Shown here: positions 6,607 to 22,382 of the stretch, piece by piece
How the letters are laid out: the number at the start of each line of letters is the position of its first letter
How positions within the stretch are numbered: the first letter of the stretch is position 1
Origin: Pseudanabaena frigida
GTDB lineage: Bacteria > Cyanobacteriota > Cyanobacteriia > Pseudanabaenales > Pseudanabaenaceae
Reading direction: 5' to 3'
DNA: 64,000 nt
NCBI GenBank assembly: GCA_003242085.1
Contig: QBML01000012.1
Location: 62,001-126,000, forward strand
Notes under the pieces: model-generated
Database searches by the model: none
What the model was told of the DNA's origin: nothing
The model's input: the letters and a program-made list of their open reading frames with translations, nothing else
Made by a program: the position numbers and the translations under genes

Positions 6607-7590
6607 ATGCCTGTCTACTTTTATTGGGGCGATGACGACTACCAAATAGCACAAGCAGTCAAAAAACTAATTGATACCTATGTTGATCCCATATGGCGCG
6701 ATTTTAACTATGTAAAAATCAATGCTAATGGGGATCTTGAGGTAATGAATGGGCTAAACCAAGCTGTAACTTCACCCTTTGGAATGGGTAATCGATTAAC
6801 TTGGTTGGTAGACACAATGATTGCCCAAAGATGCTCTGAAGCTCTACTAGTAGAGCTAGAAAGAACTTTTAATCACTTGCCTGTAAACTCTTACATCTTG
6901 TTTACATCATCAAATAAACCAGATGGGAGAGCCAAATCTACCAAATTATTGCAGAAGTATGCCCAGACTCTAGAGTTTTCTTTAATTCCACCTTGGAAAA
7001 CTGACGTGATTGCTCAACTAGTTAAACAAGCTGCGGGAGAAATTGACTTAAAGCTAACATCTGATGCAGTTGATTTACTGGTTGATTCAATTGGTAATGA
7101 TACACGTCGTTTAACGATGGAATTGCAAAAATTGCAACTATTACATCATGGAAAAACATATCCTCTTAATGCAAAGGAAATAGCACCACTTGTGCAAGTG
7201 TCTGCTCATAATAGTTTGCAACTAGCTAGTGCAATTCGTACCGCAAATGTTAGTCAAGCACTTTCATTAATTGCGGAATTACTGAGGAATAATGAAGTGG
7301 GTTTGCGGATTTGTGCAACTTTAGTAGGGCAGTTTCGGACATGGCTATGGATTAAGCTAATGCAAGAATCGGGTGAGCGCGATGATAAAGCAATCGCTGA
7401 GGCTGCTGAAATTGGTAACCCGAAGCGAGTATATTTTCTCAAACAGGAAGTGCAAGGATTAAATAGCCAACAGCTAATGCGATCGCTAAGTATTTTGTTA
7501 CGCCTTGAAGCTGATCTCAAACATGGTAAAGAGGAAACGGCGACGCTGCAAACCGCAATCGTTGAGTTATGTCAGGCAATGGCAAAGTAA
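6607..7590 (+). CDS. holA: DNA polymerase III delta subunit
   Basis: HolA opens the beta sliding clamp as part of the clamp loader. The 327-aa protein begins MPVYFYWGDDDYQIAQAV, the usual start of cyanobacterial HolA, where a degenerate P-loop region lies in the AAA+-like domain. The central part (WKTDVIAQLVKQAA, DAVDLLVDSIGNDTRRLTMELQKL) and the C-terminal collar domain (LRICATLVGQFRTWLWIK, NPKRVYFLKQEV) match the family. The length is normal. It is divergent from the sugar transferase and 76 bases before aroB, with which it may be cotranscribed. Confidence 0.92.
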   Translation: MPVYFYWGDDDYQIAQAVKKLIDTYVDPIWRDFNYVKINANGDLEVMNGLNQAVTSPFGMGNRLTWLVDTMIAQRCSEALLVELERTFNHLPVNSYILFTSSNKPDGRAKSTKLLQKYAQTLEFSLIPPWKTDVIAQLVKQAAGEIDLKLTSDAVDLLVDSIGNDTRRLTMELQKLQLLHHGKTYPLNAKEIAPLVQVSAHNSLQLASAIRTANVSQALSLIAELLRNNEVGLRICATLVGQFRTWLWIKLMQESGERDDKAIAEAAEIGNPKRVYFLKQEVQGLNSQQLMRSLSILLRLEADLKHGKEETATLQTAIVELCQAMAK

Positions 7591-7666
7591 GATTATAAAT
7601 CTAGCTTTACAAGATTTGATAACGTGATCGCTGTTACGATAAAAGACAGACGTTTTATCCAGAAAT

Positions 7667-8797
7667 ATGTCCGAATATTCCGCAACAGTTACCGTTGCAC
7701 TCAATAGTGATAGCCAACCAAATCGCAGTTATGACATTGCGATCGCCGCTCATAGTCTCAAAAACTTAGGTGATAAATTATTAGAAATTGGTTTAGGCAA
7801 AAAAAGCAAGAAAGTCCTAATTGTCTCGAACCCAGTCATTTATAAGCATTATGGCGAGACCGTGCAGGCATCCCTAAGCAAAGCAGGTTTTGACATAGCT
7901 CAACTGATTTTGCCAGCAGGTGAACGCTTTAAAACAGCAAATTCACTCCAAAGAATCTATGACGCAGCACTTGCACATCGTTTAGAACGCTCATCGGTAA
8001 TCATTGCCCTCGGTGGTGGTGTTATTGGCGATATGTCGGGCTATGCAGCAGCAACTTGGTTGCGTGGAATCGATCTGGTTCAAGTACCTACCACACTTCT
8101 TGCCATGGTGGACTCGGCGATCGGCGGTAAGACGGGGATCAATCATCCACAGGGCAAAAATCTAATTGGAGCATTTTATCAACCGCGCTTAGTATGGGTC
8201 GATCCTGAAGTATTAAAAACTTTGCCTGCCCGTGAGTTTCGCTCGGCAATGGCAGAGGTAATCAAGTACGCCGTAATCTGGGATCGCGAATTATTTGATT
8301 TATTAACTCAATGCGATCGCCTCGATCGGTTACGCGATGTTTCATCGAAACTACTGCAAACTATCCTGTATCGCTGTGCCAAAGCCAAAGCCGAAGTCGT
8401 TTCTAAGGACGAAAAAGAAGGTAATCTTCGCGCCATTCTCAACTATGGACATACAGTCGGTCATGCGATCGAGTCTGTTACCAATTATCGACTTTATAAT
8501 CACGGTGAAGCCGTCGGTTTAGGGATGCTAATTGCAGGAGCGATCGCTGTCGATCTTGGTATATGGACTGCTGACGATCAAGCCAAACAGGTTACACTTA
8601 TTGTTAAAACCCGTTTGCCACAAACTTTACCTAAAGATATCGATCTTGATGCGATCGTTGATGCTCTATCAACTGACAAAAAAGTTGAAGCTGGCAAAGT
8701 TCGTTTCATTTTACCGACAGCGATCGGATCGGTGACCCTTAGCGATCGGGTAACTTCAGACATAGTTAAACAAAATTTACGACAAATATTGGCATAA
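7667..8797 (+). CDS. aroB: 3-dehydroquinate synthase
   Basis: AroB converts DAHP to 3-dehydroquinate, the second step of the shikimate pathway to aromatic amino acids, using NAD and a divalent metal. The 376-aa protein shows the NAD-binding segment [21 protein letters not shown] (two runs), the [20 protein letters not shown] loop, the metal ligands in [12 protein letters not shown] (Glu) and [12 protein letters not shown] plus [11 protein letters not shown] (His). All key residues are present. The ATG at 7667 follows holA by 76 bases, and infC follows with its own promoter. Confidence 0.96.
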
Positions 8798-8800
8798 TAC

Positions 8801-8829
8801 TTGACACATCAAAGGCTAGTTCGTACTAT
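8801..8829 (+). promoter_or_regulatory. Sigma-70-type promoter of infC
   Basis: TTGACA at 8801-8806 and TACTAT at 8824-8829 are separated by 17 bases, an almost consensus housekeeping promoter. It lies just after aroB and predicts a transcript starting near 8836 with a leader of roughly 140 nt before infC. Confidence 0.7.
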
Positions 8830-8858
8830 ACTTAAACGTTTATGTCAAGCAAAAAGTT

Positions 8859-8908
8859 TGCTAAGCTTAAATATTTCAAACATTTGATTCAAACATTTAA
8901 GCCTAGCA
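8859..8908 (+). other. Stem-loop in the infC leader
   Basis: TGCTAAGCTTAAAT at 8859-8872 pairs with ATTTAAGCCTAGCA at 8895-8908, 13 of 14 matching, with a 22-base loop. It sits in the predicted leader of infC. IF3 genes are often controlled after transcription starts, so a regulatory role is possible, but this is only a structural observation. Confidence 0.4.
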
Positions 8909-8977
8909 TAGACATATTTTTGTAAACCACTAGTAATTTAAACCAATACCCCAAAGAGTCTAGACAACAGAGATTTC

Positions 8978-9502
8978 ATGACTAAAAAGCCAATTAAAGA
9001 CCTCCCTCAAATCAACGAACGTATCAGATATCCAAAAATTCGAGTCATTGATATGGAGGGGGAGCAACTCGGCATCCTGACCCCCAAAGAAGCCTTGAAA
9101 ATGGCTGAGGAAAAAGAGCTAGACCTAGTATTAGTCAGCGACAAAGCCGATCCTCCAGTCTGTCGGATTATGGATTACGGCAAGTTTAAGTTTGAGCAAG
9201 AGAAGAAAGCTCGAGAAGCTCGCAAAAAACAACATACTTCCGATGTCAAAGAAGTAAAAATGCGTTACAAAATTGAAGAGCACGATTACAAAGTGCGAAT
9301 CAATCATGCCGAGCGATTCTTAAAAGAAGGTGATAAGGTCAAGGCAACTGTAATGTTTCGCGGTCGCGAAATTCAACACGTCGATCTCGCTGAAGTTTTA
9401 CTCAATCGAATGGCAAGCGATCTAGAATCTGTTGCTGAAATTCAGCAGTATCCTAAGCGCGAAGGCAGAAACATTACCATGTTGATGGCTCCTAAGAAAT
9501 AG
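8978..9502 (+). CDS. infC: Translation initiation factor IF-3
   Basis: IF3 binds the 30S subunit and checks start-codon selection. The 174-aa protein has the N-domain ([29 protein letters not shown], split over residues 13-41), the [17 protein letters not shown] linker region and the C-domain ([41 protein letters not shown]). The start is ATG at 8978 rather than the rare AUU used in enterobacteria, so the autoregulation known for E. coli infC by its start codon would not apply here. A strong promoter and a structured leader precede it. Confidence 0.96.
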
Positions 9503-9510
9503 TTTACGTA

Positions 9511-9562
9511 AAAACCTAGGTATCAGTGCAGCACAAAGTGCAACGCCACTACCTAGGTTTTT
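9511..9562 (+). terminator. infC terminator
   Basis: AAAACCTAGGTA at 9511-9522 pairs exactly with TACCTAGGTTTT at 9550-9561, enclosing a smaller inner hairpin with GCAC-AAA-GTGC, and is followed by T residues. It starts eight bases after the infC stop. Confidence 0.7.
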
Positions 9563-9568
9563 ATCCTT

Positions 9569-9613
9569 ACCAAATAGTGAAGGCGACGCTTCGCGTCGCC
9601 TTCACTATTTGGT
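9569..9613. terminator. Perfect 21-bp hairpin, GC-TTC-GC apex
   Basis: Arms 9569-9589 and 9593-9613 are exact complements around a TTC triloop. It lies between the convergent infC and lipoprotein genes, directly after the infC terminator, and belongs to the GC-N3-GC hairpin family. Confidence 0.55.
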
Positions 9614-9623
9614 GTCAATGAGT

Positions 9624-10466
9624 TTATTGAGGAGGAACTAGAAATGGAATGTTCAGCGGAGTAGCAGTCGGTTGAGGAGCAGCAGTTGGTTGAGGAGCAG
9701 CTTGACTGCCGTCTGTAGATGCAACTACAGGTGCGCCTACTGGGCGCAATACCTCAACTCCATTTTGTTGCAATACAACAATCGGTGGTTCAGAATTTGT
9801 GTCAATTCGCTTAACTAATACTCTACCGTTAGAGATCACCTGCCCCGCCTTAACATAGCGTGAGGATGACTCCCCAGAAGCTTTTAAGATGGCATAAACT
9901 GTGCCTGTGACCTCAACTGTGCCAGTAACTTGCGTCCCTTCAGCAGCTTTAGTGTCAGGTGGAACAAAAACCGTACGGTTAGATGTTCTAACAACCACGG
10001 CTGCTCTTAGATTTGGTGGTTCTTTGGGCTTAGCCAAAAGAGTTTCCAATTTTGGGACTGGGTTAATTACAGTGCTAGTAAAAGGGTCGCGGGCTTGTTT
10101 AGAATCAGCGTTGATTTTTTTCTCAAGCTCTTGCACTCTAGCTTGTTTATCAGTTGTAGCGATAAGCTCCTGCGATTTTTGTCCAGCGACAAAAGGAGTC
10201 TTAAAAGCTTCTTGAGGAGGAGTCGCTACAGCTTTTGGTGGAGCATTTGTAGTGGTTACATCAGCAATGGTAGGCAGAGGCTTACCTTCTTCCGCAAGCC
10301 TTCTCATCGCTTCGCAATCAGTACCTGAGGCAAATTTTGCACTTTTAGTGACACCTTGCCTGAGTTCTCTGGTAGTGCTGATCGTACATTCGGTTGGTTC
10401 ACCACCGCAAGCACTAAGGATTGTAGTAACGCTAAGAATCACGCCAGCTAGGTAATAGATACGCAT
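9624..10466 (-). CDS. Predicted lipoprotein, PilP/GspC-like
   Basis: A 280-aa protein with a lipoprotein signal: MRIYYLAGVILSVTTILSAC, where Cys20 would be lipidated. The middle is low in complexity, and residues around 120-130 hold ARDPF, the motif that begins the folded part of many PilP-type pilus proteins. The C-terminal part (VKAGQVISNGRVLVKRI, PIVVLQQNGVEVLRPVG) resembles the small beta domain shared by PilP and GspC, which links inner-membrane pilus parts to the secretin. The tail is rich in Pro, Thr and Ala. No other pilus genes are in the window, so a role in type IV pili or secretion is a guess from fold features. Confidence 0.6.
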   Translation of the reverse strand: MRIYYLAGVILSVTTILSACGGEPTECTISTTRELRQGVTKSAKFASGTDCEAMRRLAEEGKPLPTIADVTTTNAPPKAVATPPQEAFKTPFVAGQKSQELIATTDKQARVQELEKKINADSKQARDPFTSTVINPVPKLETLLAKPKEPPNLRAAVVVRTSNRTVFVPPDTKAAEGTQVTGTVEVTGTVYAILKASGESSSRYVKAGQVISNGRVLVKRIDTNSEPPIVVLQQNGVEVLRPVGAPVVASTDGSQAAPQPTAAPQPTATPLNIPFLVPPQ

Positions 10467-15682: not shown

Positions 15683-15711
15683 TAGAGTATGGTGCGAAGC
15701 ACCTCACTCTA
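15683..15711 (-). other. Hairpin between kinase and response regulator
   Basis: TAGAGTATGGTGC at 15683-15695 pairs with 15699-15711 (two mismatches) around GAA. It overlaps the kinase stop codon region and has the GC-GAA-GC apex. It could tune the ratio of regulator to kinase, but this is inference. Confidence 0.4.
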
Positions 15712-16803
15712 TATGATATCTTGCGATGAATAGGGCAAAGCAGGCAAACGAAATCCAAAGATTGCACCTTGAGGAGTACGATTTTCTGCCCAGATTGTAC
15801 CGCCATGTGCTTCGACAATTTGGCGGGATAGGTATAAGCCCAGTCCTGAACCGCTAGCTTGGCGATCGCTTTGACCTTGATAAAACCTTTCAAATAAGTA
15901 TGGTTTTTCATCTGGTTTAATCCCCGCACCAAAATCAATCACTTGGACTATCTGATGCGATGACTCTGTCTCCAGTACTACCTCGACTTTAGCCCCCCTC
16001 GGTGAATGATTAATGGCATTGGCGAGCAGATTTGAAAAGACTCTCCGCAATTGGAAGTCATCACCATTCACCCAAAGAAATTTACGAAATTCAGAATCAC
16101 CATAATGTAAAGTCAAATAAACGCTGCGACTAGTCGATAGTGGAAGCAGTGAGGTGGCCACTTCTTCTGCTAAAGTTGCCAAATTAATTGGAGCTAATCT
16201 CAATTGCAAGCCTTCCGTTTCATTGCGATAGACATCAAGAAGGGTCTCAACTAAGCGCAAACTGTTCTGATGACTGCGAATCATCGTTGCTAATACTATT
16301 TTTTGTTTAAACTGAATACTCCCAAACTGTTCGCGTTCGAAGGCTTGTAGAGTTTCGATCGCACCTAGTAAGGGCGTTTTTAAATCATGGGCTAAAGTAG
16401 AAGCAAAATCTTCACGCACATTCATGATTTTTTCTTGAGCCTGTAGTTTTGCCTGTTGCTTTACCAAGGTTTGCAGTGTTAGGTGATGGCGATCGCTTAA
16501 AATCCCAGTTAAGATCAAAGCAAATACAGTCACCAAACGATTTACCACCATTGAAGCGTGAATTTCCCCATTGGGGGGAACCCAGATATTGAGTAACGTC
16601 AAAATTACCGCAGCTAAGATGATTTGAAATATAGCAACACGGCTCAATCGAGAATTAGCGATCAAGATTGGGCTGACGTAGAGATAACTCATTACATAGT
16701 CTGGCGGGGTGGAGAATTCTAAAGTAAATACTATTCCAAATAGCCCTGCAATTATCCAAAAGAAGGGCGATCGCCAAGATGGTTCTAATAATTGTTTGGA
16801 CAT
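15709..16803 (-). CDS. Membrane-bound sensor histidine kinase
   Basis: A 364-aa kinase with about four N-terminal membrane helices (residues 12-115, DYVMSYLYVSPILIANSRLS between them), a short coiled segment, a HisKA domain with the phosphorylated His in TLAHDLKTPLLGAIETLQAF, and an ATPase domain with N-box NLLANAINHSPRGA, G1 VIDFGAGIKPDE and G2 SGSGLGLYLSRQIVEAHGG. There is no separate periplasmic sensor, so it probably senses within the membrane. It pairs with the regulator just downstream. A 120-bp stretch of this gene (16488-16607) recurs at 25875-25994 as a fragment. Confidence 0.92.
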   Translation of the reverse strand: MSKQLLEPSWRSPFFWIIAGLFGIVFTLEFSTPPDYVMSYLYVSPILIANSRLSRVAIFQIILAAVILTLLNIWVPPNGEIHASMVVNRLVTVFALILTGILSDRHHLTLQTLVKQQAKLQAQEKIMNVREDFASTLAHDLKTPLLGAIETLQAFEREQFGSIQFKQKIVLATMIRSHQNSLRLVETLLDVYRNETEGLQLRLAPINLATLAEEVATSLLPLSTSRSVYLTLHYGDSEFRKFLWVNGDDFQLRRVFSNLLANAINHSPRGAKVEVVLETESSHQIVQVIDFGAGIKPDEKPYLFERFYQGQSDRQASGSGLGLYLSRQIVEAHGGTIWAENRTPQGAIFGFRLPALPYSSQDII

Positions 16804-16830: not shown

Positions 16831-17060
16831 GATCGCACCTCATCCCAAATCAAACTGCGATCGCCTATTTTCTCAGACACATTAAAACGATCGCCCTCTC
16901 ATTCCAAAAACCAACGATCTCAACTTATCTCAAATCAAACAGCGATCGCCTATTTTTGTCAGACACACTAAATGATTAAGGCGATCGCCCTCTCATTCCA
17001 AAAACCAACGATCTCAACTTATCTCAAATCAAACAGCGATCGCCTATATCCATCATCACG
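16831..17060. repeat. ~94-bp tandem repeat array, left of toxin-antitoxin pair
   Basis: About two and a half units follow the kinase gene; unit starts at 16888 and 16982 are 94 bases apart and a partial unit precedes them. Each unit reads CGATCGCCCTCTCATTCC, then CAAATCAAACAGCGATCGCC (fixed blocks separated by variable stretches), giving two HIP1-like sites per unit. No ORF is convincing here. This array fills most of the 324-base gap at 16804-17127. Confidence 0.8.
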
Positions 17061-17133
17061 AATTAGCAAGGCGATCGCATAAATATCTCTACGCAGCTAT
17101 AATGAGTTTAATGAAATTCAGGAGGGTATGGTT

Positions 17134-17529
17134 ATGAGTACTCCAGTTTTAGAAGCGGATCTCACTGTTAGCTCGGTAGTAAAATCAGCAGTAAATGTGT
17201 TTGTAAAAAGTGAAGCTAATGGCAAGGTTAGTGCTATGGTCTTGGGATTGCCAGAATATCGCGTAGAAAGTCGCGATCGCCAATCTGCTCTGGCTGATTT
17301 ACAAAAACTAGTTACAGCGAAGCTTATAGGTGCTGAAGTTGTTTCATTAGAAATCGAAATCCCTCAACCTGAAAATCCTTGGCTCCGTTTTGCAGGAATT
17401 TTTAAGGATGATCAGTCTTTTGATCGAATGCAAGAAGATATAGCTGAGTATCGTCGCGAAAAGGATGCTGAGTTAGAGAGCTACTATCATCAAATTGAGA
17501 TGGAAGAATCTAAGGAACAGGTTCTATGA
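17134..17529 (+). CDS. Putative antitoxin of a PIN toxin-antitoxin pair
   Basis: A protein of 131 aa that precedes and overlaps the PIN-domain gene by four bases (ATGA). The middle (SAMVLGLPEYRVESRDRQSA followed by LADLQKLV) resembles the small beta-alpha fold of HicB-type antitoxins, and the acidic tail with NPWLRFAGIFKDDQSFDRMQ resembles the toxin-wrapping tails of VapB-type antitoxins of cyanobacteria. Start choice: AGGAGGG lies at 17120-17126, seven bases before ATG 17134; the ATG at 17128 is too close. The pair sits between two arrays of the same 94-bp repeat. Confidence 0.7.
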   Translation: MSTPVLEADLTVSSVVKSAVNVFVKSEANGKVSAMVLGLPEYRVESRDRQSALADLQKLVTAKLIGAEVVSLEIEIPQPENPWLRFAGIFKDDQSFDRMQEDIAEYRREKDAELESYYHQIEMEESKEQVL

Positions 17530-17945
17530 CTTTATTGATTCTTGACACCGATCACATATCTTTGTATCAGCGAGGAGATCTGAATGTCATTAATCGACTG
17601 AGTTCGGCTAATTCCAAAAATCTAGCGGTTACGGTTATTTCGCTTGAGGAACAGATGTATGGAAGACTCAGTGAAATTAAGAAAGCTACTTCCGCTATCT
17701 CTTTGATAACTGCTTATTCGAGATTAGAAATCACTCTCGACTATTTCAAAAGTGTTCAAGTTTTGCCATTTGACCAAAATGCTCATACAACTTTTGAGAG
17801 TTTGATACGTCAAAAGTTGCGAGTTGGAACTCAAGATTTACGCATTGCGGCGATCGCTTTGTCTGTAAATGGGATAGTTGTACCTCGCAATCAAAAGGAT
17901 TTTGATAAAGTGCCAAATCTACAAGTAGAAAATTGGGCAGCTTAA
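17526..17945 (+). CDS. PIN-domain RNase toxin (VapC-like)
   Basis: A 139-aa PIN nuclease. The four acidic residues expected in the family are visible: LDTDHISLYQRG (first Asp pair), the Glu in SLEEQMYGRL, Asp in GTQDLRIAAIAL, and Asp in RNQKDFDKVPNLQVENW. It would cleave RNA (in VapC proteins usually tRNA or rRNA) when freed from its antitoxin. ATG at 17526 overlaps the antitoxin stop. Codon use is slightly more AT-rich than neighbouring housekeeping genes. No further gene follows before the repeat array. Confidence 0.85.
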   Translation: MTLLILDTDHISLYQRGDLNVINRLSSANSKNLAVTVISLEEQMYGRLSEIKKATSAISLITAYSRLEITLDYFKSVQVLPFDQNAHTTFESLIRQKLRVGTQDLRIAAIALSVNGIVVPRNQKDFDKVPNLQVENWAA

Positions 17946-17962
17946 CAAATAAAAATAGAAAC

Positions 17963-18228
17963 GCGATCGCCCTCTCATTCCATAATCTAACGATCGCAAC
18001 TCATCTCAAATTAAACAACGATCGCCTATTTCCTCAGACCCAATAAATGTTCAAAGTGATCGCCCTCTCACCCCACAAACCAAATGAATGCAACTCATCT
18101 CAAATCAAACAACGATCGCCTATTTACTCAGACAAGCTAAATGTTCAAAGCGATCGCCCTCTCATTCCACAAACCAAGGATCTCTTATTTCCCAAATCAA
18201 ACAGTGATCACCCCACACTGACCACAAA
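17963..18228. repeat. ~94-bp tandem repeat array, right of toxin-antitoxin pair
   Basis: Three units start at 17964, 18057 and 18151 (93-94 bases apart), the last one degraded. They share the blocks of the array at 16831-17060: GCGATCGCCCTCTCATTCCA, CTCATCTCAAAT, AACGATCGCCTATTT and CTCAGAC. They fill most of the 347-base gap before the end of the Roc-COR gene. Small ORFs here are repeat artefacts. Confidence 0.8.
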
Positions 18229-18292
18229 CTCAATCACCTATCCATGCTTCCCGTAAACTGCGATCGCAAAGAAAAGTTGAGGATCTTAATCA

Positions 18293-21064
18293 CTAACCTT
18301 CTAGAAAACCTTTGATTGTAGCAATTACAATTTTTGCAACTGGATGATTAATCGCTTCTTCTAATGCGGTAACGCTACCTTCTTTGAGAGCTTCTACAAT
18401 TTTTTGCTGAAGTGGAGAATCTTTTTTGATTGCATTGACAGCTTCATCTTTCATTAGATTTTGCCCCTTTTCGGTATTGGGATTGTATTCTTCAGAAAGT
18501 TGATCGAGTAGCTCTTTGATTTCTTTGGCGGCTTCGGCAAGGTTTTGAGAATTGTTGGTTTGTAGACCGATTTTATCGCTGCTCACATAGTCGCCCCCGA
18601 AGCTGTATTGTTGATTGCTCATAGTTTGCTCTGGAATTGGCGTATTCGTAATATTGATATTGACGGGAAATGGTTGGCTTTGTTGTCTATCTCCATCTCT
18701 AACGTACAGGTTTGACCTTTCGCCTACATCGTCAATCAGACTGAGAATATCGACATTTTCATAGCTAATTTCGCATAGAATAGTGCGTACACGATTTTCG
18801 TAGCGGCGTTTGAGGTTGGCGAATTCGTAGAAATGGGGATTTTGACTACCTCCACAGGTGTTGCAGTTGCAGGGGATGAGCTTTTGATATTTGTCGGCGA
18901 GGCGCTTGTAAGAGTTGTGGATTTTGTCGAGTTCGTGGGTGACTACTGTTAATAGGTCGCGCTTGTTTTTGCCAGAGACGCGGATCTTGATTTCGCGCTT
19001 GCCGTAGTTTTCGATGACTTCAGCGCGGGTATGGGGATATTCGCGCTTATGGATGATTACGCCGCTACGCCAGACATTTTGGGCTTCGATGTTTTCGTGT
19101 ATGGCGACGATAAACTGACGCACGATGCCTTTTGGCATGAAGTCGTAGGTATATCGCAGGATCAGGTTTTCGGATTCATCCCAAGCATATTCAGGTTGGT
19201 TTTCGGTGAGGAGTTGGGGGGCGATGTAACTGCCTTTTTCTTGCGGGATTTCGTAGCAGAGTTGAAACTTTTTCATTAGTTCTAGTAAGCCGCTATGCAT
19301 TCCTGTATATTCTTCTGCGCTCCAGATTTGAGCAAGGGCTTTGTTGCTAAAGCGTCCAAAGTTACGGATTACTTCGGGATTGTCGAGAACGGCGTATGCG
19401 GCATCGGTTCCCCATTTGGGTATGAGGATGACGATTTGATAGAGGGGCGACATTTCATCGTCTTGAAAGTGTAGACAGATGCCGAGGTCATGGAGATAGT
19501 CGCTAAGTTGCAATGCGTTTTTACGTTCTTTAAAACCATTTTCCTCACAGATTTGAACATATTCATAGAGACTGATGTAGTTGCGCGGATGGTTCTCTAG
19601 GGCATGGCGGACTTTGACCCACGTTTTTGGGAGGGTTTGACCGATGTGGGGGAGTTGACTGAGTTGATGTTGACATTCGGTCAGGATTTTATCTAAATCG
19701 CGGTTGGTGGCGAGATTGGTGGCAAGGACATCTTTAAAACTGCCAAATTCTCCGCGCAATTGGTTGACATTAATAATTTCCCGTTGACGGTCTTGTTTTT
19801 CGTTTTTGATAATTAGAATGGGGCTGTTGTCGCTGAGGAGTTCGATGACGTTGAGCCAATAGTAAAAGTCGGTGTCTTCTTTACGGGTATCGGCAACGAT
19901 GAGATAGAGGGAGCGTTTGGTAAGGAAATATTGATGGGTGGAGTGGTAAATTTCTTGTCCGCCGAAGTCCCAAATATTGACATTAAATTGATTGCCGTCG
20001 CTACGGAGAAATGACCAATGTAAGACTTCGATGCCTTTGGTGCTGTCTTCTTCGCAGAGTTGGTAATCGGGGTTAATGATTTTATTAGCAAGGGAAGTTT
20101 TGCCTGCGCCACCTTCACCGACAATCAGAAGTTTTGCTTCGTAAAGATAGTCTACGCCTTCGGTTTCTAATTGTTTGAAGTATTGGCGAATGTCTGCGAT
20201 GCCTTTTTTGACGATTTCTAAGGGAGGCTCTTCGATCGGATTGTCATCTAGATTTAGATAGGAAAGATTAGTTAACCTCGTAATCGAGTCTGGAATAGCG
20301 CTGAGACTGTTGTAGCCAAGGTTCAGGGATTGGAGATTAGTTAACCTCATAATCGAGTCTGGAATAGCGCTGAGACTGTTGTAGCCAAGGTTAAGGGATT
20401 GGAGATTGGTTAACCTCATAATCGAGTCTGGAATAGTGCTGAGACTGTTGAAGCTAAGGTTAAGGGATTGCAGATTAGTAAACATTGAGATGGCTTCTGG
20501 AATCTCTCGGAGACTATTGTTACTTAGGTCAATGAATTGTAGATTAGGAAGCTCAAACATCTCATCTGGAAAAGCTGTTAGATTTTGATTAGACAAATCA
20601 AGGCTTATAGAGTTATTTTCTAAAGCAAGTTTAATCAACTCTTTATATTGAGAAGATAAAGATCTATTTATTGAAGATATGATGGGAAGAGGTGGATAAA
20701 TATTTCTTTTTTGTAGAGTCACTTCACAACTTACAGACCTAATAGGTGTTCCCCATTGATTTACAAAAACTACTGAAAGCGAACCATCCCTTTCTTTTGT
20801 ATCCGCCTCAAGCAAAAACTTTGCATTCCCATAAGTCCCACCAAACCGATGTAACACGATCGCAGGTTCACCAACAGATGTAACAGTAAAGAGATTCCCA
20901 GCATTTACCATGCAGTAAATTAGATACTCTTCCTCCTCATACTGCCACTCAAACCCAGACTCAGGCATCTGCAAATCGATTTCCATCAGATATGTCTTGC
21001 CAACCTCCGCCTCCTTGGGGTAGCTAATCACAGGCTGAATCGATAGCGGTAAATTATCAGTCAT
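18293..21064 (-). CDS. LRR-Roc-COR GTPase with conflict-system adaptor ends
   Basis: A 923-aa Roco-type signalling GTPase. In order: a beta-rich N-terminal domain (about 8-120), leucine-rich repeats (150-275), a Roc GTPase with P-loop GEGGAGKTS (316-324), switch DFGGQE (366-371) and NEKQD (421-425), a COR dimerisation region (480-700) with a small cysteine cluster CNCNTC (732-737), and a C-terminal helical domain (840-923, EAAKEIKELLDQLSE, EAINHPVAKIVIATIKGF) of the type that recurs at the ends of cyanobacterial NTPase and caspase-like proteins. It is the last gene of a five-gene operon and overlaps the CHAT gene by eight bases. Probable role: sensing and switching in a defence or programmed-death system. 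Confidence 0.9.
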   Translation of the reverse strand: MTDNLPLSIQPVISYPKEAEVGKTYLMEIDLQMPESGFEWQYEEEEYLIYCMVNAGNLFTVTSVGEPAIVLHRFGGTYGNAKFLLEADTKERDGSLSVVFVNQWGTPIRSVSCEVTLQKRNIYPPLPIISSINRSLSSQYKELIKLALENNSISLDLSNQNLTAFPDEMFELPNLQFIDLSNNSLREIPEAISMFTNLQSLNLSFNSLSTIPDSIMRLTNLQSLNLGYNSLSAIPDSIMRLTNLQSLNLGYNSLSAIPDSITRLTNLSYLNLDDNPIEEPPLEIVKKGIADIRQYFKQLETEGVDYLYEAKLLIVGEGGAGKTSLANKIINPDYQLCEEDSTKGIEVLHWSFLRSDGNQFNVNIWDFGGQEIYHSTHQYFLTKRSLYLIVADTRKEDTDFYYWLNVIELLSDNSPILIIKNEKQDRQREIINVNQLRGEFGSFKDVLATNLATNRDLDKILTECQHQLSQLPHIGQTLPKTWVKVRHALENHPRNYISLYEYVQICEENGFKERKNALQLSDYLHDLGICLHFQDDEMSPLYQIVILIPKWGTDAAYAVLDNPEVIRNFGRFSNKALAQIWSAEEYTGMHSGLLELMKKFQLCYEIPQEKGSYIAPQLLTENQPEYAWDESENLILRYTYDFMPKGIVRQFIVAIHENIEAQNVWRSGVIIHKREYPHTRAEVIENYGKREIKIRVSGKNKRDLLTVVTHELDKIHNSYKRLADKYQKLIPCNCNTCGGSQNPHFYEFANLKRRYENRVRTILCEISYENVDILSLIDDVGERSNLYVRDGDRQQSQPFPVNINITNTPIPEQTMSNQQYSFGGDYVSSDKIGLQTNNSQNLAEAAKEIKELLDQLSEEYNPNTEKGQNLMKDEAVNAIKKDSPLQQKIVEALKEGSVTALEEAINHPVAKIVIATIKGFLEG
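20266..20472 (-). repeat. Three near-identical 69-bp LRR-coding repeats
   Basis: Units begin at 20266, 20335 and 20404. Units one and two differ at about two positions, and unit three at a handful more. Each encodes a 23-residue repeat LNLGYNSLSAIPDSIMRLTN plus three residues. The outer repeats of the same protein are far more diverged, so the inner three were copied recently. Confidence 0.85.
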
Positions 21065-22382
21065 CGGTCTGTCCTCCTGATGGCGTAAGTCGGAGTACGG
21101 TCATTGGATTACCGTAATAGACATACATAAAAGTGTATATGAAAGCCGCTCGATTGGCTTCAGTGTCTTTGTTTGCTAAATCTGCTGCAACCTGAAAACG
21201 AATATTTCGTAGTAAAGTCGCCACAGACAAACTAGAAGAGCCTATACATGGCTGAATCAAATTCTCAGCGATTTTCGCTGCATATTCGTTTCCTACTGCT
21301 CCTAAAGTACCGATCACACCTCTAGCTCCTTTTCTCAAAAAAAGCTCGACAAACCCAATTTGGTAATTGCTAGAACTAGAAATACGACTATGAGGTTTCT
21401 GTCTCGCAGAATGACAAGTATTAATAAAAACAATTCCAGAAGACTTTTCAAGGAGCTTAAGATCACAAAAATATAAGTCACTAAGCTTCAGTTGTTGTTT
21501 TGTATCATTGAGTGAGCCGAATGAAATATTTTGATGACCTTCACCAAATTTTCCATGTGCAGCAATATAAATTAACCCATATTCTTTATCATCCTCCTCT
21601 TGTAAATGATTTTGAAATTTCGTAATGTCGTTGTAAGGAGTTACACTAAGTTGCTCGAATATTGATTGTTCTATCTTTAAATTGAGTTCTTTGTTGGCAT
21701 AAGCAATTAAACGACCAGTGCATTTGTCCGATTTATTATCAGACTTCATATCCAATGTCAAAAAATCTCCATTCTTCCCATTCTTTTGTACTTGCCGCCA
21801 GCGCACAGTTGTAACCAAAGCTCCTAAATATTTAGTGCCTGCCTTACTAGGTAAAAGTTCTAACATTTCCCAAGGAATTTCATAACTTGTCTGGTCAACA
21901 ATAATCAGACATAAATTACGGTCATGTTTCTCGTATAACTTATTCAACCAATCCAAAATTTCTATATTATTTCTTTCAAGCTCACCAGAAAAATAATTTA
22001 TATCGACACGAATATCGTTAGGCTCTAAACGTCCATTTTCTCCCGCTACTGAATTACCTATAGAAATGTTTGGGTTCATAAAAGGTTTTGTTACATCCAG
22101 TTTGATTTCAGCATTTCCACCCATTAGTTTAAAGCTATTATCTCCTTCTACTTGAACGTACAGAATTGCAACCTCATTAGGATATTTTTCGGTAATATAA
22201 ACCTTGCTATGTGGAAATATTTCCGCTTCGGTTACTTTAGCTTCAGCAATAACTGATGCGCTAGCAGCTTCAGCAATAACTGATGCATTAAATTGACTAT
22301 TACCTAGATTAGGTAATTTGCCTTGTTTAGGCATCCCACCAGAGAATATGCTTTGAAACCATGACTTCTTAGGTTCAGGCAT
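21057..22382 (-). CDS. CHAT-domain (caspase-like) protease
   Basis: A 441-aa protein whose C-terminal half is a CHAT peptidase of the caspase/separase fold. The catalytic pair is intact: His276 in IYIAAHGKFGEGH and Cys323 in VFINTCHSA, followed by FVELFLRKGARGVIGTLGAV. The N-terminal half (60-260) is a conserved partner region without a known domain, including YEIPWEMLELLP, a segment common just before CHAT cores. Residues 32-49 carry a short tandem repeat (ASVIAEA twice). It overlaps the vWA gene by one base (TAATG) and the Roc-COR gene by eight, so it is produced together with them. Probably the protease effector of the operon. Confidence 0.9.
   Translation of the reverse strand: MPEPKKSWFQSIFSGGMPKQGKLPNLGNSQFNASVIAEAASASVIAEAKVTEAEIFPHSKVYITEKYPNEVAILYVQVEGDNSFKLMGGNAEIKLDVTKPFMNPNISIGNSVAGENGRLEPNDIRVDINYFSGELERNNIEILDWLNKLYEKHDRNLCLIIVDQTSYEIPWEMLELLPSKAGTKYLGALVTTVRWRQVQKNGKNGDFLTLDMKSDNKSDKCTGRLIAYANKELNLKIEQSIFEQLSVTPYNDITKFQNHLQEEDDKEYGLIYIAAHGKFGEGHQNISFGSLNDTKQQLKLSDLYFCDLKLLEKSSGIVFINTCHSARQKPHSRISSSSNYQIGFVELFLRKGARGVIGTLGAVGNEYAAKIAENLIQPCIGSSSLSVATLLRNIRFQVAADLANKDTEANRAAFIYTFMYVYYGNPMTVLRLTPSGGQTDD

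Follow-up and report, generated by a model that had tools for sequence, protein, structure and literature searches.

The gene pair that lies between two arrays of 94-bp repeats in the window (the whole stretch of 64,000 nucleotides of Pseudanabaena frigida DNA analysed here) is probably a single cassette belonging to a mobile cassette system found in Pseudanabaena, in which cassettes are bounded by repeats and would be moved by homologous recombination between these direct repeats. An initial annotation of this DNA had proposed that a cassette was inserted into, or captured by, the array. This proposal gained support from arrays elsewhere that enclose other genes, and comparison with relatives revealed features that go beyond it: long multi-cassette arrays, a fixed orientation of the cassettes, free reordering and movement between species.

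TRF detected 94-bp tandem arrays in the window at 16831-17047 (2.4 copies, score 314) and at 17963-18177 (2.3 copies, score 304). With an HMM of the unit these spans were lengthened to 16831-17079 for the left array (about 2.5 units, HIP1-rich) and to 17960-18241 for the right array (about 3 units), both of type a and both on the plus strand. The right array matched a single unit of the left array in the same direction with E values of 1e-14 to 1e-20, which is far beyond chance; the longest identical stretch between the two arrays was 20 bp. Each unit contains two full HIP1 sites (GCGATCGC) and a degenerate third one. In the sequence and the listing of array edges, the left array stops at the HIP1 at 17071-17078 and the repeat restarts at the same unit phase at the HIP1 at 17963-17970, so that the break and the restart coincide with the same HIP1 of the unit. 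The same-direction repeats on either side of the pair and the two HIP1-like sites per unit, as described in the initial annotation, were thereby confirmed. Its statement that nothing else lies between the arrays was also correct, as only the two ORFs of the pair were found there and no transposase was present in the interval. A repeat search for transposon features around the pair yielded inverted matches that were only weak or HIP1-based. The arrays are not CRISPR, again as claimed, since the units (94 or, in a shorter type, 53 bp) follow each other in tandem without spacers and no Rfam match was obtained within the window. The claim that the units are free of ORFs held in so far as no gene-like signs were seen; mechanically, a 69-aa ORF (18047-18256) can be read through the right array. 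Folding of the 94-bp unit, examined for a hairpin site, was no better than that of shuffled sequences (z -0.8 on both strands). The 53-bp type formed only HIP1-HIP1 stems of 7-8 bp (z -7.6/-6.1), because palindromes must pair in this way.

The first gene of the cassette (17128-17529, plus strand) is a candidate antitoxin ORF of 133 aa, taken from the ORF list and from the paired homologues elsewhere. It matched no Pfam or NCBIfam family; its protein is 94-97% identical in four other records, where the PIN gene is always situated downstream. The second gene (17526-17945, plus strand) overlaps the stop of the first and encodes a candidate PIN-domain (VapC-like) toxin of 139 aa. Its profile matches were weak, with an E value of 7.8e-4 for PF01850 in Pfam and of 2.3e-16 for NF047863 in NCBIfam, the former below the cut-off and the latter below the curated cut-off. 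Acidic residues are found in PIN-like positions (D7/D9, E41/E42, D104 and D125/D127). On this weak PIN/VapC match the pair is a predicted PIN/VapC-like toxin-antitoxin operon. Alignment of the window with the genomes G003, G012 and G018 and the locus L163 delimited a segment common to unrelated chromosomal contexts, 17093-17971 on the plus strand, of which the left edge reads CA(G/A)CTATAATGAG and the right edge is the first HIP1 of the right array.

On the left the arrays are flanked by a sensor histidine kinase gene (15709-16803, minus strand), identified by profile search and comparison of homologues. A homologue was present in 19 other genomes of the genus, mostly without an array; only G009 has an array there. 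In G009 a contig end (L107) is located close to this array. Such arrays probably break draft assemblies, and cassette counts in draft genomes are therefore likely to be too low. The right flank is an LRR-Roc-COR (ROCO) gene (18293-21064, minus strand; Pfam), which faces the array with its 3' end. In G003 and G021 the array adjoins a gene that shares solely its N-terminus with the ROCO gene of the window. The N-termini of the array-facing genes (18293-21064 in the window, L063:10707-12479 and L073:8409-9428) are common with 67-81% identity and their C-terminal parts are wholly different, the window gene carrying LRR-Roc-COR. Perhaps effectors are swapped beside the array at these three genes. 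The ROCO gene contains a 69-bp tandem repeat (20265-20575) that encodes leucine-rich repeats, and it is adjoined by a CHAT-domain gene at 21057-22382.

The strict 94-bp unit was found only once in its own genome, at the window locus. The other loci of this genome contain a shorter relative of about 53 bp, type b. At C33:113.4-114.3k (L096) type b arrays enclose a DUF433/DUF5615-like pair, at C5:~210k (L098) related repeats enclose a PIN-like pair, and other pairs of small genes are bordered by decayed arrays. When the entire locus was used as a DNA query, matches were obtained in all 26 genomes of the genus, mostly as short repeat clusters 0.6-1 kb apart. The type b repeat occurred in 25 of the 26, with only weak matches elsewhere in the class. 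Confinement of the unit to this place thus applies to its strict 94-bp form within its own genome and not to its type b cousin, of which arrays occur elsewhere in that genome and genus-wide. In the relatives, successive cassettes of small genes are parted by 94-bp or 53-bp arrays, with up to about 20 cassettes in a row. Mapping yielded 150 cassettes, defined as the intervals between arrays, with 271 ORFs in 45 loci at 36 chromosomal sites in 15 genomes; the median interval was 636 bp and the median array 147 bp. The initial annotation had suggested a search of the genome and its relatives for the unit with and without cargo and a check on whether other arrays enclose different genes. They do, in L096 and L098 as well as in the genus, and arrays without cargo exist too (L069 and L150).

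The mapped loci were selected by repeat similarity, and ORF calls and the grouping of sites were made with in-house scripts. Sites were grouped by the nearest flanking gene, as grouping by any common flanking gene chained most loci together. Because related genomes are not independent, orthologous loci (three of them between G023 and G025) were merged. In complete genomes the mapped loci are chromosomal. The arrays had no match in phage records and a few matches in Pseudanabaena plasmids.

The cargo consists mostly of toxin-antitoxin genes, in operons of about 0.5-0.9 kb. Counted over the 25 most frequent Pfam families, some of which overlap, the 96 cargo family representatives included ParE (10), DUF433 and PIN (5 each), DUF5615, YoeB, DUF6883, DUF4926 and Phd/YefM (4 each), and YhaV, BrnT, HicA, HicB, PemK and RelB (two each). 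Among 92 flanking genes ParE was found 5 times and DUF433 and TumE 3 times each. Toxin-antitoxin genes are clearly enriched in the cargo over the flanking genes, and some of the flanking matches may themselves be cassettes with decayed repeats. Pairs of DUF6883 and DUF4926 genes recur as cassettes in many array loci (e.g. L080:5784-6383 and L070:4587-5200), and one is carried by a mobilizable Pseudanabaena plasmid (L173); they look like an undescribed toxin-antitoxin pair.

At each of the 45 mapped loci all repeats are on one strand. Relative to the repeats, every gene family present at at least two sites (61 of 61) held a single orientation, 30 families the same as the repeat and 31 the opposite. 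Neither the 131 comparisons at the gene level nor the 78 at the cassette level, which covered 33 cassette types, gave a contrary case. This count used ORF clusters at 60% amino-acid identity, at which all families were consistent; a threshold of 35% merged subfamilies with each other and gave an appearance of inconsistency in four families. The nearly equal numbers of same and opposite families imply that no functional bias sets the orientation. The order of the cassettes was random between non-orthologous loci (121 pairs the same versus 136 different), and shared adjacencies numbered 2 versus 5.9 expected. Exchange between repeats that are direct and asymmetric should leave the orientation constant and the order free, as was observed. 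Because HIP1 is palindromic, it would not fix the orientation by itself. Cassette edges typically fall at a HIP1 site; at least two HIP1 phases occur, and every pairing of left and right phase is represented (AA 33, BA 23, BB 20 and AB 14), as is expected for homology anywhere in the unit.

These regularities bear on the view that a local minisatellite merely grew to the left and right of a toxin-antitoxin pair with which it has nothing to do, as HIP1-rich intergenic spacers expand. HIP1 is common in cyanobacteria and the arrays L069 and L150 lack cargo, as such a coincidence would allow. It is nevertheless scarcely probable in view of the regular spacing of 0.6-0.9 kb, the single strand at 45 of 45 loci, the constant orientation in 61 of 61 families and the enrichment of toxin-antitoxin genes over the flanking genes.

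The operon of the window was encountered in five unrelated contexts (the window, G003, G012, G018 and L163); its named matches are Pseudanabaena sp. FACHB-1998, Pseudanabaena sp. M085S1SP2A07QC, Phormidium tenue FACHB-1050 and a MAG labelled Coleofasciculaceae. In G012 the shared sequence begins near 17093 and ends at the right array's first HIP1, and the operon is without array copies of its own. Conversely, the same site holds different cassettes in L062, L074 and L159, and likewise in L061 and L066. The genomes G023 and G025, which are 98-99% identical around L143/L145, differ there by one 2.1-kb cassette. The cassette-free array starts as the left array does, with one mismatch over about 117 bp, and ends as the right array does, with few differences over about 200 bp; its middle matches neither. 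From this alignment the breakpoints are placed within the repeats, gain and loss of the cassette being alike possible. In 229 gene pairs from different sites and species, cassette genes had a mean nucleotide identity of 93.7% versus 80.5% for the histidine kinase gene, with the cassette gene above the histidine kinase gene in 210 of the 229; the size of this gap is approximate, as the yardstick is mainly this one gene. With a second yardstick, in G000 (the genome of the window) versus G012, the operon was 95.1% and mutM 82.4% identical. A cassette identity above that of chromosomal genes indicates that the cassettes move horizontally. At the level of sequence comparison, these loci demonstrate that cassettes have come or gone, changed their order and passed from one species to another; they were never found inverted relative to the repeats.

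A constant orientation would also be explained by common descent, if the loci were ancient clusters that are inherited vertically, change by gene loss only and contain nothing that moves. Some orthologous loci of G023 and G025 do share most cassettes in order. This explanation is very unlikely, since order is random between sites, cassettes at different sites in different species are far more alike than chromosomal genes and the operon of the window has five unrelated contexts.

If homologous recombination between direct repeats is the basis, the portable homology would lie in the repeats. Crossing over of two directly repeated arrays would excise the cassette, perhaps as a circle, and this circle, or incoming cassette DNA flanked by some repeat sequence on either side, could recombine into a resident array elsewhere. 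The orientation would be set by the directional sequence around each HIP1 and not by the palindromic HIP1 itself. Number and sequence of the units would turn over fast via slippage or unequal exchange, and the cassettes would probably be exchanged by the cell's general machinery for homologous recombination (RecA). Toxin-antitoxin genes, being addictive, would be the ones retained best in such arrays, as their loss carries a cost. Orientation, breakpoints inside repeats and several junction phases all agree with homologous recombination. Identical stretches between arrays of different loci had a median of 22-23 bp and reached up to 64 bp. Within a locus, however, the identity of the arrays is modest: the longest identical stretch had a median of 18 bp, near the lower limit for RecA-type exchange, and reached 25 bp in 15%. 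Repeats beside the same cassette at different sites resembled each other barely more than random repeats do (0.71 vs 0.71 on the left, 0.76 vs 0.74 on the right), which suggests either a fast turnover or that repeats are not carried along. The idea that repeats travel with the cassette is not supported by this similarity.

A dedicated site-specific recombinase, or a HIP1-directed recombination or cutting activity, that used a site within the unit would not be hindered by the scant homology of some arrays to each other. Cassette edges typically coincide with HIP1, and a link of HIP1 with site-specific recombination has been suggested and, in another cyanobacterium, reported (PMC4390886). However, a site consisting only of HIP1 is palindromic and should give both orientations, whereas none of the 78 cassette-level comparisons showed an inversion. 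The edges are moreover spread over at least two HIP1 phases in every left/right combination, none of the 25 Pfam families most frequent in the cargo is a recombinase family, and a search of the loci for dif-like sites with up to 2 mismatches was negative. Such an activity is unlikely as the explanation, though a dedicated recombinase that recognizes the asymmetric unit may be at work.

In other cyanobacterial families (L166, L169, L170 and L171), HIP1-rich tandem arrays of 27-28 bp were found beside toxin-antitoxin-like pairs. The neighbours are HicAB-like, XisH/XisI-like and a YoeB-like gene that resembles a recurrent Pseudanabaena cassette, and the pairs seemingly obey the same orientation rule, as judged by eye. 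On account of these similar arrays and this seeming rule, the cassette system may be phylum-wide. We tentatively propose, as somewhat less than an even prospect, that, across cyanobacteria, mobile toxin-antitoxin cassettes dock in directional arrays of tandem HIP1 minisatellites, which would constitute an independent gene-capture system that differs from integrons and depends either on general recombination together with DNA uptake or on a recombinase that recognizes the asymmetric unit. The arrays provide an integron-like cassette pool without integron sites, alongside true integrons within one genus, and raise the question whether direct repeats alone suffice for a cassette array or a dedicated integrase is required. 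They also offer a concrete route for toxin-antitoxin genes to spread and accumulate in cyanobacterial chromosomes, and a testable role in recombination for HIP1-rich DNA. The literature searched contained no description of such arrays, which is weak evidence of novelty as many subscription papers fall outside its coverage.

Integrons do coexist with these arrays. A true IntI above the cut-off was detected in 13 of the 26 genomes of the genus, and classical attC sites are present. True integrons with IntI and classical attC are located in L085, L086, L087, L088, L091 and L093, L086 having about 20 attC matches; no paper on Pseudanabaena integrons was found in the literature searched. The own genome of the window has a broken intI (G000:C11:80732-81160, L092:9688-10164), of which only the two ends of the model match, and one weak attC-like site. 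With an attC covariance model built from the integrons of the genus itself, dozens of sites were found at intI loci and none in the window or the 44 array loci, except for two in L144 that are outside the repeat arrays and adjoin a true integron. In this locus of G023 (L144:5215-6103 and 7374-10289) the true integron array ends immediately next to a HIP1 repeat array. An attC pattern scan gave 0 sites in 66.8 kb of arrays. The model and the scan rule out integrons and CALINs as the identity of the arrays.

That the arrays are integrons or integrase-less attC clusters (CALIN) with cassettes moved by IntI has, consequently, a negligible probability, even though the anatomy of the cassettes, the toxin-antitoxin cargo, the one-way arrays and the IntI in 13 of 26 genomes would all fit. 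Besides the lack of attC, no such arrays were found beside the mapped intI, repeat arrays are abundant in genomes without an intact IntI, cassettes face either way relative to the repeat, and the cargo pools are distinct, integron and repeat-array cargo having no close relatives (42% identity or less). Like chromosomal integrons and CALINs, the Pseudanabaena loci are long one-way arrays of small, exchangeable and often toxin-antitoxin cassettes with a repeated element in between, a shuffled order and horizontal spread. Unlike these, they are without attC, attI and adjacent integrase, their spacers are multi-unit HIP1 tandems of 53 or 94 bp, about half of the cassette families face each way, many separate arrays occur per genome, and the cassette pool is a different one.

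The dif modules (pdif, XerC/XerD) of Acinetobacter plasmids are likewise mobile, often encode toxin-antitoxin systems, are bounded by short sites and are shuffled (PMC13141974). They are plasmid-borne and their sites permit inversions (PMC13141974), whereas the Pseudanabaena repeats are all direct within a locus and the loci mapped in complete genomes are chromosomal. A search of the loci for dif-like 28-bp sites gave none within 2 mismatches, the best having 3 mismatches and occurring once in all loci; a reading as XerCD modules was rejected, as no dif-like sites flank the cassettes. In the neisserial dRS3/RS arrays and minimal mobile elements, according to the parts of the account consulted, intergenic repeats are thought to promote recombination with incoming DNA (PMC3898611). 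The Pseudanabaena arrays resemble these mosaic elements in that intergenic repeat arrays are tied to gene exchange. The neisserial dRS3 is described there as a 20-bp repeat with inverted ends that is mixed with RS units and linked to surface genes, and those parts describe no long ordered arrays of toxin-antitoxin cassettes (PMC3898611). HIP1, finally, is known as an abundant dispersed octamer of cyanobacteria (PMC4390886); here it forms the core of every Pseudanabaena unit, within directional tandem units that bound cassettes.
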